A stretch of 23,333 nucleotides of DNA from a virus, in the IMG/VR virus record IMGVR_UViG_3300048587_000514, positions 1 to 23,333 of that record, one strand, 5' to 3'. The position numbers and the translations under genes were made by a program. The notes beneath the pieces were generated by a model that was not told the DNA's origin, did no database searches, and saw nothing but the letters and a program-made list of their open reading frames with translations. Below are positions 4,088 through 21,440 of this stretch, piece after piece; positions within the stretch are counted from its first letter, which is position 1; each line of letters starts with the position of its first letter.

Positions 4088-4669
4088 ATGACACCAATCG
4101 TCATTGAGCAAGGAGCAAGAGGAGAACGAGCTTATGATATCTACTCAAGACTTCTTAAAGATCGTATCATTCTTCTTACTGGCCCTATTGATGACGATAT
4201 TGCTAGCAGCATCGTTGGTCAGTTATTATTTCTTAATAGTCAAGATCATGAACCTATTCAGCTCTACATTAATTCCCCAGGAGGATCTGTTACTTCTGGA
4301 TTAGCAATTTATGATACTATTCAGCATATAAAAGCCCCGGTTCATACTTTATGCGTAGGCCAAGCTGCCTCAATGGGAGCAATTTTGCTTGCCTCTGGTG
4401 AACAAGGCAAAAGGGCAATTCTTCCAAACGCAAGAGTAATGGTCCACCAACCTAGCGGGTTTGCTGAGGGTAAAGAAACCGACATTAGAATACAAGCTCA
4501 ACAAATCGAGAAGGTTAGAAATAAACTTGCTAAAATTCTTTTAAAACACACTCGCTCTGATGTTGACATTAAACATATTCATGATATGATGGAATGGGAT
4601 TTCTGGATGGAACCAGAAGAAGCTAAAAAGCATAAATTTGTAGATAAAATCTTGAAAGAGAAAATATAA
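4088..4669 (+). CDS. clpP: ATP-dependent Clp protease proteolytic subunit, phage-encoded ClpP (peptidase S14)
   Basis: A 193-aa protein, the usual length of mature bacterial ClpP. It follows the family closely: [16 protein letters not shown] near residues 12-27, [20 protein letters not shown] (60-68), GLAIYDT, the nucleophile in GQAASMGA (Ser95), VMVHQP (His120) and [12 protein letters not shown] (Asp171), giving a complete Ser-His-Asp triad. No Clp ATPase is encoded in the window, so it would need a host partner or act alone. Some phages use S14 proteases for head maturation, but those are usually next to portal or capsid genes and more diverged. This one looks like a true cellular-type ClpP in a pre-packaging cluster, more like an acquired auxiliary gene. 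Confidence 0.95.
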
Positions 4670-8213: not shown

Positions 8214-11200
8214 ATGTCAGATAATAGAGAAGAATATTGGGCACAGCTTGAAAAAACAGAAGTCTGTTCCGAACTCAGAAAAAAAATTGAAGACTGGTAT
8301 AGTCATATCTCGACAACCGGTATTTTTCGCCGAATGCGAAAATGCTATCTGGCATATTATGGATTTAGTAGTGCAGGCCAAGGTCATACTTCTTCAGAAG
8401 TAACATATGGCGGAGCCCAGGGTGAACTTTCTTTAATTAAAGTAAATCAATTACGAAATATTGTGCAACATATGCTAGTTATGACAACTAGCACTCGCCC
8501 CTCAATGGACGCTCGTGCCACCAATACTGATTATAAATCTCTTTCACAAACTGTACTTGCTAATAGTATTCTTGATTACTACATGCGAGAAAGAAAACTA
8601 GAAAGATACTTGAGAGATTCTGTAGAAACTTCTCTAATATTTGGTGAGGCCTTTATTCGACTAAGCTGGGATACCAGCCTTGGTGACGAATATATGGTTG
8701 ATAATGAAGGTAAAACAGTTTTTACTGGAGATATTAAATTCTCAGTTCATAATCCAATGGACGTAATTCGTGATGTATTTCAACCAGATGCAAATGAACA
8801 CGACTGGATGATTGTTAGAAGTTTTAAAAATCGATATGAACTAATGTCAAAATATCCAGAATTAAAAGACGAACTAATGACAATTAGTACAAAAGATCGT
8901 CTTGATTTTGAATATATGTTTATTAACTTTAATTATACAACATCTTCAGATTTGATTCCCGTATATGAATGGTATCATAGACGAACAGAATCAATGCCTA
9001 ATGGTCGATATATTACATTTATTGATAATGATGTTGTGTTTTACGACGGCGATTTACCATATAGAGATATTCCTTTATACAGAATTACTCCTTCAAATCA
9101 AATTCAAACCCCCTTTGGATATACAGCAGCTTTTGATTTATTAGCTCTTCAAGATATTACAGATGCATTACATAGTACAATTGTAACAAACCAAAGTACC
9201 TTTGGTGTACAAAATATTGCAGCACCCCAAGGACATAACTTAACTGTTAGTCAACTTGGTGGCGGCTTAAACTTTATTGAATATGACCCTGCTGCAGGAA
9301 AACCAGAACCACTTAATTTAACCTTTACGCCACCTGAAATTTTTAACTACCTTGGTACAATTGAAAAAACCATGGAAACTATTTCTGGTGTAAACTCAGT
9401 CGCCCGTGGAAATCCAGAAGCAAATCTTCGCTCTGGTAACTCTCTCGCACTTGTTCAATCGATGGCCATTCAGTTTAACAATGGTCTTCAGCAGTCATAT
9501 GCTCAGTTAATTGAAGACGTAGGTACGGCTATTATTAAAACATTGAAAGATTTTGCTTCTGTAGAAAGAACCGCAATTCTTACAGGTAAAAATAATAAAT
9601 CAAATCTTAAATCATTCAAAGGTGATGATCTTAAAGATATTGATAGAGTTATTGTAGATTTAGGTAACCCTCTTTCTAAATGTCTTAAAAAAGGAACTAA
9701 AGTATTAATGTATGACGGTTCACTTAAAAAAGTAGAAGACATAAAAATTGGTGAACAAGTAATGGGACCAGATAGCAAACTAAGGACAGTTTCTAATGTA
9801 AACATTGGACAAGAAGAAATGTTTGATATTTATCATAAGAAAACAAATCCTAAGCTTTTATATGGCTGCAATAAAAGTCATATTCTTTCTCTTAAATATT
9901 GTTCAAAAGATGGTAGATATGGTTTAAAACAATATGACATTGTTGACGTTTCTGTCGGTGAGTTTTTAACTTGGCCAGCTGGAAAACAACAAAAATTCAT
10001 GGGATTTAGAACCGGAGTAGAATTTCAAGATAAAGACACACCAGTTCCTCCTTATCAACTTGGTCTTTGGCTTGGTGACGGACATAAAAATACCCCAGCT
10101 ATTACCACAATGGATGAAGAAATTAAACAAGAATGGTATGAATACGCAAAAGCAGTTGGGCATGATATCAGAGTACAAGATCAACCAAATAATCAATCAA
10201 AAGTGTATTTTATTACCAGTTCTAAACAAAACGGATCAAATGATCGAAATTGTGCATTAAATGCATTTAAATCTATCGGAGTTATTAATAATAAACATAT
10301 TCCTGATCTTTATAAAATCAATTCAACAAATAAACGATTAGAACTTTTAGCTGGTATTTTAGATACGGACGGAACTCTTATATCAGGAAAAACCTTTGTA
10401 ATTACACAAAAAAATAATGAATTAGCTAAAGATATTATATATTTAGCCAGATCGCTTGGATTTAAAGTTACTAGTAGAAAACGAATATCGTTTTCTCAAA
10501 ACAAAACTAGAGGTATATATAATTCAATCACAATCTCTGGGGATACCTGGAGAATACCCACTAGATTGCCACGAAAAAAAGCTAATAAATCAAAGCATAA
10601 ATACAACCATTTAAACTATGGAATTAGTATAAAATCAACAGGACCTGGAACATATTATGGATTTACTCTTAAAGAAGAACCTCATTTTGTTCTTGGTGAT
10701 TTTACGGTAACTCATAATACCACCGCTGGTAAACTCGAAATGGCTAACAATCTCATGCAGATGGGTCTTATTAAATCACCCGATCAATACATGACAGTCA
10801 TGAAAACTGGAAATCTTGATGTAATGCTAGAAGGACCACTTCGAGAACTTACATATATTAAACAAGAAAATGAGTGGCTTGCTGATGGAAAAGAAGCGCC
10901 AGTTTTGATTACAGATAACCATTTGCAACACATCATGGAACATAAATCGGTATTATCAACAATTGAAGCTCGAATGAATCCCGAAGTGATGCGAGCTTGT
11001 AGAATTCATATTGAAGAGCATGTAAATGCTATGAAAAATGCAGACCCAGATGTCCTTTCAATGCTTGGTATTCAACCCCTACAGCCAGGAAGAACCCAAA
11101 TGGATAATCTTGATCCAAACCAAGCGGTATTAAGGCGTGAACAAGAAATGCAAGCTCAAATTGCACAACAGTCCATGATGGGTGGAATGCCTCAATTGCC

Positions 11201-11357
11201 AGCTGGAACCGGACAAGAAACTACATCTACAAATCAGCAAGTTTTACAACAAGGGTTACCAGGTGAGCAGCCGGGCCAAGAAATGCCCCAACAACCAGGA
11301 AGTCCTACAAATCCACTAAGTGGAGGAAAATGGAACCCACAAACTGGTGGAATGTAA
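8214..11357 (+). CDS. Portal protein interrupted by an in-frame intein
   Basis: A 1047-aa precursor. The exteins (residues 1-489 and 836-1047, 701 aa when joined) make a large podovirus-type portal, the dodecameric ring through which DNA enters the head. Evidence: place between terminase and scaffold/capsid, size like P22 or N4 portals, sequence such as IPLYRITPSNQIQTPFGY near residues 290-310 and VNSVARGNPEANLRSGNS near 395-415, and a C-terminal Gln/Pro/Gly/Met-rich tail (about 970-1047). Residues 490-835 are a LAGLIDADG intein. Splicing would join GNPLSK to TTAGKLEMANN. The ATG at 8214 follows a T7-like promoter closely. Portal identity rests on context and overall pattern; confidence is high. 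Confidence 0.88.
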   Translation: MSDNREEYWAQLEKTEVCSELRKKIEDWYSHISTTGIFRRMRKCYLAYYGFSSAGQGHTSSEVTYGGAQGELSLIKVNQLRNIVQHMLVMTTSTRPSMDARATNTDYKSLSQTVLANSILDYYMRERKLERYLRDSVETSLIFGEAFIRLSWDTSLGDEYMVDNEGKTVFTGDIKFSVHNPMDVIRDVFQPDANEHDWMIVRSFKNRYELMSKYPELKDELMTISTKDRLDFEYMFINFNYTTSSDLIPVYEWYHRRTESMPNGRYITFIDNDVVFYDGDLPYRDIPLYRITPSNQIQTPFGYTAAFDLLALQDITDALHSTIVTNQSTFGVQNIAAPQGHNLTVSQLGGGLNFIEYDPAAGKPEPLNLTFTPPEIFNYLGTIEKTMETISGVNSVARGNPEANLRSGNSLALVQSMAIQFNNGLQQSYAQLIEDVGTAIIKTLKDFASVERTAILTGKNNKSNLKSFKGDDLKDIDRVIVDLGNPLSKCLKKGTKVLMYDGSLKKVEDIKIGEQVMGPDSKLRTVSNVNIGQEEMFDIYHKKTNPKLLYGCNKSHILSLKYCSKDGRYGLKQYDIVDVSVGEFLTWPAGKQQKFMGFRTGVEFQDKDTPVPPYQLGLWLGDGHKNTPAITTMDEEIKQEWYEYAKAVGHDIRVQDQPNNQSKVYFITSSKQNGSNDRNCALNAFKSIGVINNKHIPDLYKINSTNKRLELLAGILDTDGTLISGKTFVITQKNNELAKDIIYLARSLGFKVTSRKRISFSQNKTRGIYNSITISGDTWRIPTRLPRKKANKSKHKYNHLNYGISIKSTGPGTYYGFTLKEEPHFVLGDFTVTHNTTAGKLEMANNLMQMGLIKSPDQYMTVMKTGNLDVMLEGPLRELTYIKQENEWLADGKEAPVLITDNHLQHIMEHKSVLSTIEARMNPEVMRACRIHIEEHVNAMKNADPDVLSMLGIQPLQPGRTQMDNLDPNQAVLRREQEMQAQIAQQSMMGGMPQLPAGTGQETTSTNQQVLQQGLPGEQPGQEMPQQPGSPTNPLSGGKWNPQTGGM
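9681..10718 (+). mobile_element. Intein with LAGLIDADG homing endonuclease (in portal)
   Basis: A 346-aa in-frame insert, residues 490-835 of the portal precursor. It begins with Cys490 and a classic block A (CLKKGTKVLMYDGSLKKVED). A block-B-like segment with CNKSH follows at about residue 545. Two LAGLIDADG motifs are intact: LGLWLGDG (616-623, Asp622) and LAGILDTDG (712-720, Asp719). Block F/G is YGFTLKEEPHFVLGDFTVTHN, ending in His-Asn835, and the first C-extein residue is Thr836. The splicing residues (Cys1, block-B His, terminal His-Asn, +1 Thr) are all present, so self-splicing and homing are both likely functional. Confidence 0.93.
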
Positions 11358-17195: not shown

Positions 17196-17381
17196 GCCTA
17201 GTAAAACCCAACTTTCTATTACATTGGGACGCATCTGCTATCCCTTAAATAATAAGCTTGTTGGTATTTGAATGCACTTACGCCTATATTTCAATTCCTA
17301 CCCTTAATAGGGCGGTAGATGAAAAAAGTAACGTTAATATATCAAATAACAACAAATATTTAATTAAGGAGATATTGTAAA

Positions 17382-17432
17382 ATGTCTGGATCAAACACAG
17401 TATCGACACTTAATGGTAACTTTAAATTCCTT
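17382..17432 (+). CDS. Major capsid protein, exon 1 of 3
   Basis: ATG at 17382 with a strong SD (AAGGAGAT at 17366-17373). It encodes 17 residues, MSGSNTVSTLNGNFKFL. Unspliced, the frame stops at 17445 after 21 codons. The 5' splice site is placed after T17432 because CCTT (17429-17432) pairs with GAGG (17441-17444) to form P1 with the required U-G at the splice site, and because joining to GAAGTA at 18355 restores a continuous frame. Confidence 0.8.
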
Positions 17433-18354
17433 GAAGTTGTGAGGTAAAGTTGTTAACCCCTCCTAGACAAACAATAGTTTGCTAGAAAAGTACGTGAATT
17501 GCTGGAACTCCTGAAAAGGACAATCAGCAGCCAAGCCGTAGAGATACGGAAGGTTCAGAGACTACATATAGTAATTATCCTTAGCCGTATGGCGTTGGAG
17601 ATAAATAAAATGCTCAATAAAGATAAACGAAGCATGGTACTATCTTTAGTATTAGGAGATGGTTGTCTGCATTATATTAAAAATAATGGCAGAATCTTCG
17701 GTGGTTTAACAATAGATCATGGAATTAAACAGGCTGACTATCAAAGCTGGAAAGCAAGTTTACTTTCAACTATTTTTAATAAAAACATCAAAGTAAGAAC
17801 CGGACACAAAGGTAAATCAGTTCAACTAAGTCTATGTACAAAAAGATTTAGAGCCTGGAGAAAATTTTGTTATCCTAATAATAAAAAAGATATAGCTAAA
17901 ATTCTTCCGTTTATTAATAATCCCGCATTTGCATTAGCAATTTGGCTTGCAGACGATGGTTATGCAGAAGTCGGTAAAAATATTAAATCTCCTAATAGTA
18001 TATCTAGTAGATTAAGAATTTTTACTTGTGATCAAAGTATACCTACTCAAGAAGTCATCATTAAATGGTTTAAAACGCAATTTAATGTCAATGCAAAGAT
18101 TAAATATGCTCATAGTAAACAACAAAATAAGTCTTATCCTTATATAAAGTTTACACAAGAAGATAGCTTAAAACTATGGGGAATTATTAGAGATTTTATA
18201 TTGCAATTTAAAAGTATGCAGTATAAATTTAGACATATAGAGCAAGTTTATCAATTACGAATATTACAGCGCGTACCAGATCGTAGGTTTAAATCTACTA
18301 AATCTGATGATATAGTCCAACCTCCTAGTAATAGTGAGATAAAGTAAAGCGAAG
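17433..18354 (+). mobile_element. Group I intron 1 (IA-type) carrying a LAGLIDADG endonuclease gene
   Basis: A 922-nt intron with all core elements. P2 hairpin 17463-17485; P element GAATTGCTGGAACTCC from about 17497; Q CAATCAGCAGCC (17521-17532); P6 stem CCGTA-GAGA-TACGG (17536-17549); R GTTCAGAGACTACA (17553-17566); S GATATAGTCC (18309-18318). GACTA in R pairs with TAGTC in S (P7). The endonuclease ORF sits between R and S, in the P8 region. The 3' end is taken as G18354; G18351 would also keep frame and add one Lys. P10 could not be drawn convincingly. Confidence 0.88.
17610..18347 (+). CDS. LAGLIDADG homing endonuclease (intron 1 encoded)
   Basis: 245 aa from ATG 17610, preceded by GGAG (17597-17600) at suitable spacing. 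An upstream in-frame ATG at 17499 would make 282 aa but would translate the ribozyme core (P, Q, R), so it is rejected. Two dodecapeptide motifs: LSLVLGDGC (residues 11-19, Asp17) and ALAIWLADDG (108-117, Asp116). It cuts intronless alleles of the capsid gene to spread the intron. The last residues (about TKSDDIVQPPS) are encoded by the S element and P7 3' strand, so the coding sequence overlaps the ribozyme core. Basic and Lys/Asn-rich, unlike the capsid exons. Confidence 0.9.
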   Translation: MLNKDKRSMVLSLVLGDGCLHYIKNNGRIFGGLTIDHGIKQADYQSWKASLLSTIFNKNIKVRTGHKGKSVQLSLCTKRFRAWRKFCYPNNKKDIAKILPFINNPAFALAIWLADDGYAEVGKNIKSPNSISSRLRIFTCDQSIPTQEVIIKWFKTQFNVNAKIKYAHSKQQNKSYPYIKFTQEDSLKLWGIIRDFILQFKSMQYKFRHIEQVYQLRILQRVPDRRFKSTKSDDIVQPPSNSEIK

Positions 18355-18465
18355 GAAGTATATTCCAACGAAATCAAGAACTTGATTCCGGATGGCGTTA
18401 AATTTCTTAAACTAGTTAACTATGTAGAGTCGAGCAAAGAACTTGGAAATTTTTATCACCAGCCT
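18355..18465 (+). CDS. Major capsid protein, exon 2 of 3
   Basis: A 111-nt exon wedged between two introns, phase 0 at both ends. It encodes 37 residues from EVYSNEIKNLIPDG to KELGNFYHQP. The identification rests on an open frame between two ribozymes, capsid-like sequence and matching codon use. The very next codon after its end is TAA (18466-18468), so an unspliced message stops exactly at the exon boundary. Confidence 0.82.
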
Positions 18466-18713
18466 TAAGAACAGGGCCTCTAATTAGAAATAATTAGATA
18501 AACAGTTCCTGAATTGCTGGAAACTCCCAAATAGGGACAATCAGCAGCGAAGCCTCATAAGAGGAACGTTCAACGACTAGACCGAAAGGTCGTACTGCCA
18601 AGCGGCGGGAAGCGGGAACCATCCTTAATCGGATGAAGATATAGTCTAATCTTACAGGTAACTGTAAGCAGCGAAAGCGGATAAAGAGTAGCGATCTTTA
18701 TTGAATACAAATG
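18466..18713 (+). ncRNA. Group I intron 2 (IA-type), ORF-less
   Basis: A compact 248-nt ribozyme. P1: GCCT (18462-18465) with GGGC (18474-18477), U-G at the splice site, 8-nt loop. P2: TCTAATTA-GAAA-TAATTAGA (18479-18498). P/P5: GAATTGCTGG...CTCCC with GGGA (18511-18537). P6: CCTC-ATAA-GAGG. R: GTTCAACGACTAGA (18568-18581). S: GATATAGTC (18638-18646); P7 pairs GACTA with TAGTC. P9: CTTACAG-GTAA-CTGTAAG (18651-18668). The 3' end at G18713 is supported by P10: GAAC (18469-18472) pairs with GTTC at the start of exon 3. The P, Q, R and S elements closely resemble those of intron 1. Confidence 0.9.
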
Positions 18714-19838
18714 GTTCAACTTTCACACGAACACGGCGTAACTTATTCTGCCGCTAACCCCTCTTTGGGTGCATTTGCACTTCAAGATGCAGTAGCTGCC
18801 GTATTCAAGGACGCTCAAGTTGAAGGTTCTCAAATGCTTATTCGTGCTTCGATGAGCTATGAGGCAGCGGCTCGTGCTTCTAACGATAAAAAAGCTTTCG
18901 TAAAAGCCACTTCACTCATGGTGAAGAACATGGTAAACTCGATGGCTAAACGGCTTGAAGTTTCTAACCTCTATGGACGTAGAAACCTTGCTAAAATTGA
19001 TTCGCAAACTGGTGCTGGTACTTCCCGTACATATACCATCTTGGCAGCCGATTGGGCTTCTGGTATCTGGGCAGGTTCCGAAGGTATGCGTCTCGATGTA
19101 ATCGACACTGCAACACACACTGGCCCTACGGTTCTTTTGAACTCCACAGCCGCTGTTATCGTTGCTGCTGTTGACTTGACAGCTCGTCAAATTTCTGTTA
19201 CTGGAAACGGTGCAGATTTGACTGCAATCGACGCTGCTATCGCCACTGGAGCCTATATGATTCCTCGTGGTGCTCTTAACAACGACATCTTTGGTTTGGA
19301 TCGTATTGTATCGAACACCGGTTCGCTCTACAATATCGATGCCGCTTCCTATGCCCTCTGGCGTGGAAACGTTATTGATAACCTGGGTGTTGCTCTTTCT
19401 TTCAGCAAGATTCTTAACGCTCTTTCACGAGCCGTTGAGCGTGGTCTTGATGAAGATGTAGTTTGCATGATTTCTCCGAAAACATGGGCAAACATTTCTT
19501 CTGACCAAGCGGCTCTTCGTCGTTACGATGATAGCTACAAAGGAAGCAAACTTGAAAACGGATCAGTTGAGTACTCATTCTTTGGACAAAACGGTCGAAT
19601 TGACATTGTTTCTTCGATCTATGTTAAAGAAGGAGAAGCCTTCTTGTTCCCACCTAAGCTTTTGAAGCGTATCGGCGCTATGGACATTTCGTTCAAAATG
19701 CCTGGACGTCCTCAAGAGGAGTTCTTCCTGGAACTCACAAACAACGCTGGTTATGAACTTCGCGCATACACGGATCAGACCCTGTTTTGCGAAGCTCCTG
19801 CGAAGCTTGTCAAAATCTTTAACATTGTGAATAGCTAA
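18714..19838 (+). CDS. Major capsid protein, exon 3 of 3 (main body)
   Basis: Exon 3 encodes 374 residues; with exons 1 and 2 the spliced coat protein is 428 aa. The ATG at 18711 is not the start: its G is the last base of intron 2, and the join reads GNFYHQP-VQLSHEHGVTYSAANPS, a natural continuation. Capsid identity follows from position after scaffold, dedicated promoter and terminator, size, and sequence such as YTILAADWASGIWAGSEGMR (about residues 158-177 of the spliced protein) and a C-terminal RIDIVSSIYVKEGEAFLFPP region typical of coat proteins. This exon is visibly more G/C-rich and uses codons of highly expressed genes (many CGT, TTC, AAC), unlike the A/T-rich neighbours. Confidence 0.88.
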   Translation, partial: VQLSHEHGVTYSAANPSLGAFALQDAVAAVFKDAQVEGSQMLIRASMSYEAAARASNDKKAFVKATSLMVKNMVNSMAKRLEVSNLYGRRNLAKIDSQTGAGTSRTYTILAADWASGIWAGSEGMRLDVIDTATHTGPTVLLNSTAAVIVAAVDLTARQISVTGNGADLTAIDAAIATGAYMIPRGALNNDIFGLDRIVSNTGSLYNIDAASYALWRGNVIDNLGVALSFSKILNALSRAVERGLDEDVVCMISPKTWANISSDQAALRRYDDSYKGSKLENGSVEYSFFGQNGRIDIVSSIYVKEGEAFLFPPKLLKRIGAMDISFKMPGRPQEEFFLELTNNAGYELRAYTDQTLFCEAPAKLVKIFNIVNS

Positions 19839-19978: not shown

Positions 19979-20833
19979 ATGTCTTACGGTATTATTTATA
20001 AAATTACAAATCTGTTAAATAATAAAATATACATCGGTCAAACTACTACTAGTATAAATAAACGATGGAATCTACATAAAACCGCATCTAAACTCCAGGG
20101 TTTAAATTCTAAGACTAAATCTATTTTACATAAAGCAATTCTAAAATATGGTCCATCCAATTTTTCAATAGAAGTTATATATAATTGTTCAAATAAAGAA
20201 GAATTAGATAAACAAGAAGATCTGTTAATTACTGAATATAATTCATTAGCTCCACATGGATATAACATGAAAAGGGGTGGCGGAAATGGAACATGGACAC
20301 AAAGTTCTAAAATTAGACAGTCTAACAGGTTAAAATTATTGTACAAAAATAATCCTACTTTAAAAAATAAACTTTCTAAAACCTGGCATACCTTCTGGGA
20401 TAACCTATCGGAAGAAGAACACGAATTTTACGTTTCTAGATGGTCTAAAAAAAGCAAACAATACTGGACTGAAGATAATAAAGCTAAAAAGTCTAAAATT
20501 GAGAAAAAAAGATGGAAAAATCTCGATATTGAACAAAAAAAGAAAAGAATAAAGGGATTTCGAGAATATTGGACAGGCGATAAACTAAAAGAACATGGTG
20601 AATATATTAAAAGTCTATCCCTTTGGAAAAAAAGCGGCTGTTTAAAAAAAGCTATGGATATATCAAGCAAAAAGGTTAAAGTTATTGAAATAAAAACAGG
20701 AAAATGTGTTATATATGAAAGTCAATCTGCCGTTGTTCGTCATCTTAAAATAGCTCAAAATACTATTGTTGATATAATGAAAAATAGAAGATCTAATGAA
20801 TATAAAGGTTATAAGTTTGAAAAAGTCAATTAA
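19979..20833 (+). CDS. GIY-YIG homing endonuclease (free-standing)
   Basis: 284 aa. The N-terminal GIY-YIG nuclease has GIIYK (residues 4-8), YIGQT (18-22), Arg29 in KRW and the catalytic Glu80 in LDKQEDLLI. It is followed by a NGTW-type (NUMOD-like) segment at about 100-105, a long Lys-rich linker, and a C-terminal DNA-binding repeat (VKVIEIKTGKCVIYESQSA then helix-turn-helix and YKGYKFEKV), like T4 Seg and I-TevI-type enzymes. There is no Shine-Dalgarno before the ATG. It lies between the capsid terminator and the next late promoter, not inside an intron, so it may home into the flanking region. Its end overlaps the next gene. Confidence 0.93.
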   Translation: MSYGIIYKITNLLNNKIYIGQTTTSINKRWNLHKTASKLQGLNSKTKSILHKAILKYGPSNFSIEVIYNCSNKEELDKQEDLLITEYNSLAPHGYNMKRGGGNGTWTQSSKIRQSNRLKLLYKNNPTLKNKLSKTWHTFWDNLSEEEHEFYVSRWSKKSKQYWTEDNKAKKSKIEKKRWKNLDIEQKKKRIKGFREYWTGDKLKEHGEYIKSLSLWKKSGCLKKAMDISSKKVKVIEIKTGKCVIYESQSAVVRHLKIAQNTIVDIMKNRRSNEYKGYKFEKVN

Positions 20834-21440
20834 AGATCTTTATAGAATAGAGCCCATTTCGTATACAAAGGCTCAAGAATTAGTTAAAAAGAATCATTAT
20901 TTACATGCAAAGGCTCCTTATAAAATAGCCTTCGGTTTAATTTCTAATGATACAAATGAGATAGAAGGAGTTATAATTTATGGTCGAGGTCCATCTGGAA
21001 GCGTATTTAATAGCATATGTGGCAAAGAAGAGGCTAAAAATGTAATTGAGCTTACTCGTTTATGGGTAAAAGACGGTCTTCCAAAAAACTGCGAAAGCTA
21101 CCTCATTGGTAATACATTACATAAAACCGGTTATGATATTATAGTGTCCTTTGCAGACAGTTCTCAAAATCACATAGGAACGGTATATCAAGCTACTAAT
21201 TGGATATATCTAGGTCTAACGAAGGCCGTTTTAGAATATAAACTAAAGGGAGTTGTGACACATCAATATAAATGGTTTAAGGGATATAGTATAAAAGAGT
21301 TAAAAGAATTCTATGGAGATGACCTATACTTAGCTCCTAGATCTAGAAAGCATAGATATGTTTATTTTACCTCAAGAAGGCGTTATTTACTTAAAAAGTT
21401 GAAATTTCCTATTTTAACGTATCCTAAGAAAAAAGCCTAA
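20796..21440 (+). CDS. Mom-like DNA modification protein (GNAT-type fold)
   Basis: 214 aa from ATG 20796, or 207 from a TTG at 20817 that has AAAGG eight bases upstream; either overlaps the GIY-YIG gene. The pattern matches the family of phage Mu Mom, which modifies adenine (N6-methylcarbamoyl) to block host restriction: IEPISYTKAQELV...HYL (19-36), FG...N..EGV.IYG (46-63), ELTRLW (85-90) with PKNCES (96-101), and SFADSSQNHIGTVYQATNW (118-136). The C-terminal ~60 residues are basic. Family assignment is from recalled motifs. Being in a cassette with its own promoter, it looks like a moron that protects phage DNA; activity is not shown. Confidence 0.72.
   Translation: MNIKVISLKKSIKDLYRIEPISYTKAQELVKKNHYLHAKAPYKIAFGLISNDTNEIEGVIIYGRGPSGSVFNSICGKEEAKNVIELTRLWVKDGLPKNCESYLIGNTLHKTGYDIIVSFADSSQNHIGTVYQATNWIYLGLTKAVLEYKLKGVVTHQYKWFKGYSIKELKEFYGDDLYLAPRSRKHRYVYFTSRRRYLLKKLKFPILTYPKKKA

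Follow-up and report, generated by a model that had tools for sequence, protein, structure and literature searches.

In the Cluster J mycobacteriophage LittleE, the major capsid gene contains a probable group I intron whose splicing was shown by RT-PCR, and the same paper cites, as a single case, an intron in the capsid subunit gene of the lactococcal phage Tuc2009 (PMC3706429). In Bastillevirinae, for example in the ribonucleotide reductase gene of phiNIT1, self-splicing group I introns are found, two of which are separated by a small exon (PMC11878797). The staphylococcal phage Twort has three group I introns in one gene (Landthaler and Shub 1999, cited in PMC6669764). In phage PhiPA3, the RNA polymerase gene contains an intron HNH nuclease, gp210, that acts on a conserved gene in a co-infecting relative and prevents this relative from producing virions (PMC11620839). 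The locus described here lies in IMG/VR virus record IMGVR_UViG_3300048587_000514, of which positions 1-23,333 (23,333 bases) are referred to as the window. On the sequence evidence, it is highly probable that this locus is an HK97-fold capsid gene, encoding 426 residues, that is split by a pair of group I introns with junctions at 17423/18352 and 18465/18714 and belongs to a family-wide intron hotspot. As in the window, the capsid intron of LittleE carries a LAGLIDADG-like ORF; unlike the window, LittleE has one intron and its ORF is on the opposite strand (PMC3706429).

The interrupted capsid gene

The features of the locus are collected in Table 1. The product of 17382-19838 is assigned as an HK97-fold major capsid protein from its sequence and from a model of the intronless homologue L049, in agreement with the gene identity given in an earlier note on this DNA. 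The PHROG major head protein matched by exon 3 is also matched by 31 of 32 intronless homologues, and the AlphaFold2 model of the L049 homologue (pLDDT 85) matches HK97-fold phage capsids in a fold search (best E 8.5e-10, probability 1.00). By sequence, the capsid profile gave no meaningful match in the PDB, and a capsid scan of GTDB genomes yielded 204 pattern matches and no relative. The only named phage with a capsid relative (24-29% identical) is that of Silvanigrella aquatica (L002, CP017838.1), which is a hint, rather than evidence, as to hosts.

Table 1. Predicted features of the capsid locus, numbered by position in the window
Feature	Position	Strand	Evidence
Major capsid gene, interrupted by two group I introns	17382-19838	+	
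Probable ribosome-binding site of the capsid gene, within AAGGAGA	17367-17372	+	Sequence
Capsid exon 1, 14 codons, MSGSNTVSTLNGNF	17382-17423	+	Gap-free versus intronless L004/L049; P1/P10 at 17423/18352
Intron 1, group I, 928 nt, LAGLIDADG ORF inside, ends at omega-G 18351	17424-18351	+	Rfam, same-site homologues, covariation
Intron 1 P1 exon strand AACUUU, pairs with 17433-17438 GAAGUU	17418-17423	+	Guide scan; covaries in five homologous introns
Intron 1 P10 guide UUCCUU, complementary to the start of exon 2, 18352-18357 AAGGAA	17427-17432	+	Guide scan, shuffles
Intron 1 P3 5' strand GUACGUG, pairs with 18270-18276 CGCGUAC	17490-17496	+	Two-sided changes in 4 of 7 pairs
Intron 1 P4-P5: P4 17499-17504/17525-17530, P5 17509-17512/17517-17520	17499-17530	+	Rfam, homologue alignment
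Intron 1 P6 hairpin CCGUA/UACGG	17536-17549	+	Rfam, homologue alignment
Intron 1 P7 5' strand GACUA, pairs with 18313-18317 UAGUC	17560-17564	+	Pairs in all five homologues, invariant
LAGLIDADG homing endonuclease ORF, 245 aa	17610-18347	+	Pfam LAGLIDADG_2 (PF03161) 5.7e-17
Intron 1 P8, CAGAU 18277-18281/AUCUG 18302-18306	18277-18306	+	Two-sided changes in 5 of 5 pairs
Capsid exon 2, 38 codons	18352-18465	+	Intronless-homologue match and guide scan
Intron 2, group I, 248 nt, no ORF, ends at omega-G 18713	18466-18713	+	RF00028, 109.6 bits
Capsid exon 3, 374 codons and stop	18714-19838	+	phrog_14242 major head protein 2e-13; HK97-fold homologue

As that note had reported, plain ORF calling returns only a 375-aa capsid ORF from ATG 18711. 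The LAGLIDADG ORF is called upstream of it. Joined as predicted, the exons of 14, 38, and 374 codons encode a protein of 426 aa, and 52 N-terminal residues are missed by the ORF call. These values replace the exons of 17, 37, and 374 codons, the 428-aa protein, and the 54-residue loss given before, which needed correcting because the intron 1 boundary was wrong. The N-terminus of L004, a close intronless relative (71% identical), reads MSGANTTSTLNGLFKEVYADKIENLIPDGVKLLKLVPYIEAAKEIGNLYHQPVQLSHEHG. The joined window exons read MSGSNTVSTLNGNF/KEVYSNEIKNLIPDGVKFLKLVNYVESSKELGNFYHQP/VQLSHEHG (slashes mark exon junctions) and show no gap relative to L004 if intron 1 spans 17424-18351. Because mechanical gene calling does find the ORF at ATG 18711, the capsid could in principle be made from this start, with the upstream pieces being leftovers of a decayed gene or insertions unrelated to it. 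This reading is extremely improbable: the upstream exons match an N-terminus that is contiguous in about 55 intronless relatives, exons 1 and 2 have a dN of 0.20 with saturated dS relative to L004, and two helices and one strand are predicted in the corresponding part of the L049 model. In addition, AAGGAGA precedes 17382, whereas no clear Shine-Dalgarno sequence precedes 18711.

Several other genes of the window are also of note. A ClpP-type protease ORF (4088-4669; Pfam CLP_protease 3.5e-70) lies upstream of the terminase gene. The portal gene (ORF 8214-11357) contains an in-frame intein of about 346 aa (9681-10718, between NPLSK and TTAGK) with a LAGLIDADG-type domain (Hom_end_hint, Hom_end); the portal of L029 is intein-free at the corresponding point. 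Just downstream of the capsid gene is a free-standing GIY-YIG endonuclease ORF (19979-20833), a homologue of which is found at the same place in L013 (6246-7076). A Mom-like DNA modification protein is encoded at 20796-21440 (Pfam Mom, 1.1e-39).

Predicted splice junctions and ribozyme cores

Based on guide pairing and on the alignment with homologues, the correct junction of intron 1 is assigned as 17423/18352 (AACTTT/AAATTC...AAAGCG/AAGGAA). At this junction, the guide UUCCUU-GAAGUU forms 12 consecutive pairs with AACUUU/AAGGAA, six in P1 and six in P10. The splice-site pair in P1 is U17423.G17433 and omega-G is 18351, as a group I intron requires. The guide score is 28 (17 for the next-best in-frame junction in the scanned range), which was reached by 2 of 20,000 shuffles, and the joined sequence aligns gap-free with intronless relatives. 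The earlier note had instead placed the junction at 17432/18355. This candidate is in frame and a 4-bp P1 (CCUU/GAGG) can be drawn for it, but it adds two residues that are absent from intronless relatives (NGNFKFL/EVY versus NGLFKEVY) and falls outside the four top-scoring junctions of the guide scan. Moreover, homologous introns with a covarying P1 are located at nt 41/42 in L013, L027, L029, and L030. A gene with both introns, this junction, and a 428-aa product is thereby left with next to no credence, and 17423/18352 is retained. The comparison with intronless homologues that had been suggested as a check consequently supported the spliced N-terminus but not the proposed intron 1 junction. 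The P1 helices with a U-G pair that had been seen for both introns were recovered in the guide scan.

Intron 1 is assigned as a group I intron with a covarying P3-P8 core from its alignment with the homologues at the same site, which are those of L013, L027/L028, L030 (nt 42), and L029 (nt 41). In a focused search, it matches Rfam RF00028 in two pieces, as would be expected of a core that an ORF splits: 45.7 bits for 17414-17690 and 22.1 bits for 18159-18338, both short of the gathering score of 50. A single whole-intron match to Rfam was not obtained. P3 joins segments about 780 nt apart, which flank most of the ORF. Across P1, P3, P4, P5, P6, P7, and P8 of the family alignment, 93% of cells are paired, compared with 31-51% in slid controls, and 14 pairs change on both sides, compared with 1-7 for slid partners. 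The core structures were proposed from sequences that were also counted (for intron 1, the window sequence), which favors them over the slid controls on cells paired; two-sided changes are the stronger measure. The covariation count is lowered by the retained L029 row, which is misaligned around P3-P4, and P7 contributes no covariation because it never varies.

The intron 1 ORF contains the motifs LSLVLGDG and AIWLADDG, and its homologues in related phages are 57-61% identical (59% with L013 aligned). The frame overlaps the 3' core strands P3', P8, and P7' and stops 4 nt short of the intron end, so this stretch doubles as ribozyme and coding sequence. One hairpin is found between P7 and the ORF. 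The likely ribosome-binding site of the ORF is inside a small predicted hairpin (17571-17609). A hairpin before the ORF is predicted in all five homologous introns, with weak single-sequence z-scores, and sequestration of the Shine-Dalgarno sequence is only a lead suggested by these predictions.

Intron 2 matches RF00028 across 18456-18668 (E 5e-28), above the gathering score. P1 is formed by 18462-18465/18474-18477 (GCCU/GGGC), P10 by 18469-18472/18714-18717 (GUUC/GAAC), and P7, by reading, by 18575-18579/18642-18646. The guide score at 18465/18714 is 19, which was reached by 52 of 20,000 shuffles, and the L075 intron at the same site is 74% identical; these results confirm the junction that had been proposed for this intron, and the P10 that had been described was also found. 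Two hairpins are located between P7 and P3', where introns of subgroup IA have the extra helices P7.1 and P7.2; this is consistent with the previous, provisional assignment to that subgroup. For 65% of its length, intron 2 can also be matched to phiNIT1 DNA, at 77.5% identity. The search with group I covariance models that had been recommended therefore bore out both cores, with 109.6 bits for intron 2 and two sub-gathering pieces for intron 1, while the 111-nt exon that they were said to flank is corrected to 38 codons.

Introns at the start of related capsid genes

Profile searches reached 170 relatives, all metagenome contigs and some of them near-duplicates. The best 80 loci were kept, and the first profile covers most of exon 3. 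Upstream in-frame reading of these 80 of 170 loci gave 55 contiguous N-termini and 25, including that of the window, that are broken within this region. Clustering of the capsids at 95% identity gave 72 clusters, of which 19 bear introns, one to three each. The mapped sites, in the CDS numbering of L004, are 41, 42, 129, 138, 145, 150, 156, 158, ~164, 168, 180, 181, and 211. In L189 (2051-4445), protein matches alone place three more breaks near the capsid gene start, and one exon there measures about 30 nt. Three introns each are present in L013/L014, L101, L102, L122, and L189. Introns can be separated by exons of as little as 13 nt (L005), 18 nt (L104), or 20 nt (L013), and by one of about 16 nt in L058, for which the guide was not fixed. 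Nucleases of the LAGLIDADG, GIY-YIG, and HNH types are encoded in capsid introns of the family. A terminase query recovered one relative only.

Because the first profile could favor loci that are uninterrupted in exon 3, a second scan was run with the last 130 aa of the capsid, which ranks loci independently of the N-terminal part. Of 79 assessable loci, 23 have an interruption, which always falls in roughly the first 85 codons, and no break was found in the next ~200 codons. These sequences identify the first ~85 capsid codons as a hotspot of intron invasion at a dozen or more sites, involving several group I lineages. It might be argued that the window introns are real and that the hotspot is nonetheless produced by assembly or search, as the loci are metagenome contigs and most of exon 3 was included in the query used to rank the top 80. 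However, contigs from separate samples have homologous introns at the very same sites, and the C-terminal query gives the same picture, which makes an artefact very unlikely and favors repeated invasion.

Among the other intron-bearing loci scanned, only the intron of L075 reached Rfam gathering. For the rest, the group I call is based on the U/omega-G residues, guide pairing, and mutual homology, with covariation for two families; in the short intron family at sites 150-168, 95% of cells are paired and 17 pairs change on both sides. For 31 introns of the family, the mean guide score is 23.2 with their own exons and 6.6 with swapped exons, a comparison with some circularity, as junctions lying close together were in some cases chosen with the help of the guide. 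Poor scores were obtained for L075_156 and L047_42. The first intron of L047 has a P1 mismatch and was missed by the strict guide scorer; its junction was taken from homology to intron 1 of the window. No junction could be fixed for the L067 intron in the guide analysis.

Turnover of these introns is recent, since the capsid genes of L101 and L105, 96% identical in DNA, carry different introns with no common site (129, 156, and 180 versus 42 and 150). The site-180 ribozymes of L093 and L101 are 99.5% identical, compared with 80-86% for the wider flanks; a GIY-YIG ORF is contained in the L093 intron but not in that of L101. Introns that share a site are usually homologous. Related ribozymes also occur at differing nearby sites (150 and 168, up to 84% identical; 138 and 145, 81%) and have different guides. 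This pattern fits local retargeting, but it may also reflect independent arrival of related introns. Gene identity, introns, boundaries, homologues, hotspot, and recent turnover were all read from sequence.

Proposed working and relation to known systems

Splicing in the cell, endonuclease activity, hitchhiking, and mutual protection of neighboring introns are what we infer from these features. In the transcript, the internal guide of each intron would pair with both exon ends through P1 and P10, a guanosine-dependent cut would follow U17423 or U18465, and the exons would be joined at omega-G. Capsid-frame stops occur after seven intron codons in intron 1 and immediately (TAA) in intron 2, and would halt ribosomes before they reach deep into the ribozymes. 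The LAGLIDADG endonuclease of intron 1 would attack capsid alleles of co-infecting phages that lack the intron, with cleavage near codon 14, and repair would then copy the intron. Intron 2, which has no ORF and lies at a distance of 114 nt, could be carried along by co-conversion. A more tentative proposal, which we regard as possible but rather unlikely, is that the capsid gene start is a battleground of mobile intron lineages whose nucleases recognize overlapping stretches of the same ~130 bp. A resident intron would split, and so protect, the targets of its neighbors, and two or three introns would amount to stacked immunity against the capsid-gene cutters of co-infecting phages.

Naming and comparison of uncultivated phages make standard use of the major capsid gene as a marker. 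In roughly one-quarter of the capsid clusters analyzed here, this gene would be truncated by gene callers or its N-terminus would be missed. The family also provides a natural series for the study of intron homing, site shifting, ORF loss, and competition among mobile introns, with capsid genes up to 96% identical that have different introns, related introns a few nucleotides apart, and exons of 13-30 nt.

The window resembles phiNIT1 in having a small exon between group I introns, but the Bastillevirinae introns are in ribonucleotide reductase, polymerase, and terminase genes, with the capsid unmentioned (PMC11878797). Relative to PhiPA3 gp210, the target of the LAGLIDADG nuclease would be the capsid gene, and competition here is putative. 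Tuc2009, as cited in PMC3706429, is a phage unrelated to that of the window and has a single capsid intron rather than a tandem pair. Twort shares multiple group I introns with the window, and its three-intron gene is not known as a capsid gene. In the accessible portions of the sources, tandem introns or a multi-site hotspot are not described for LittleE (PMC3706429), nor is a multi-site hotspot across relatives described for Twort. Text searches of the literature, with subscription papers mostly outside their coverage, found no capsid-gene intron hotspot of this kind. The earlier view that tandem capsid introns are unusual thus holds against the accessible literature but not inside this phage family, where they recur. 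Single capsid introns and a phage gene with three introns were already known; a capsid hotspot with multiple sites and multiple intron lineages is new.
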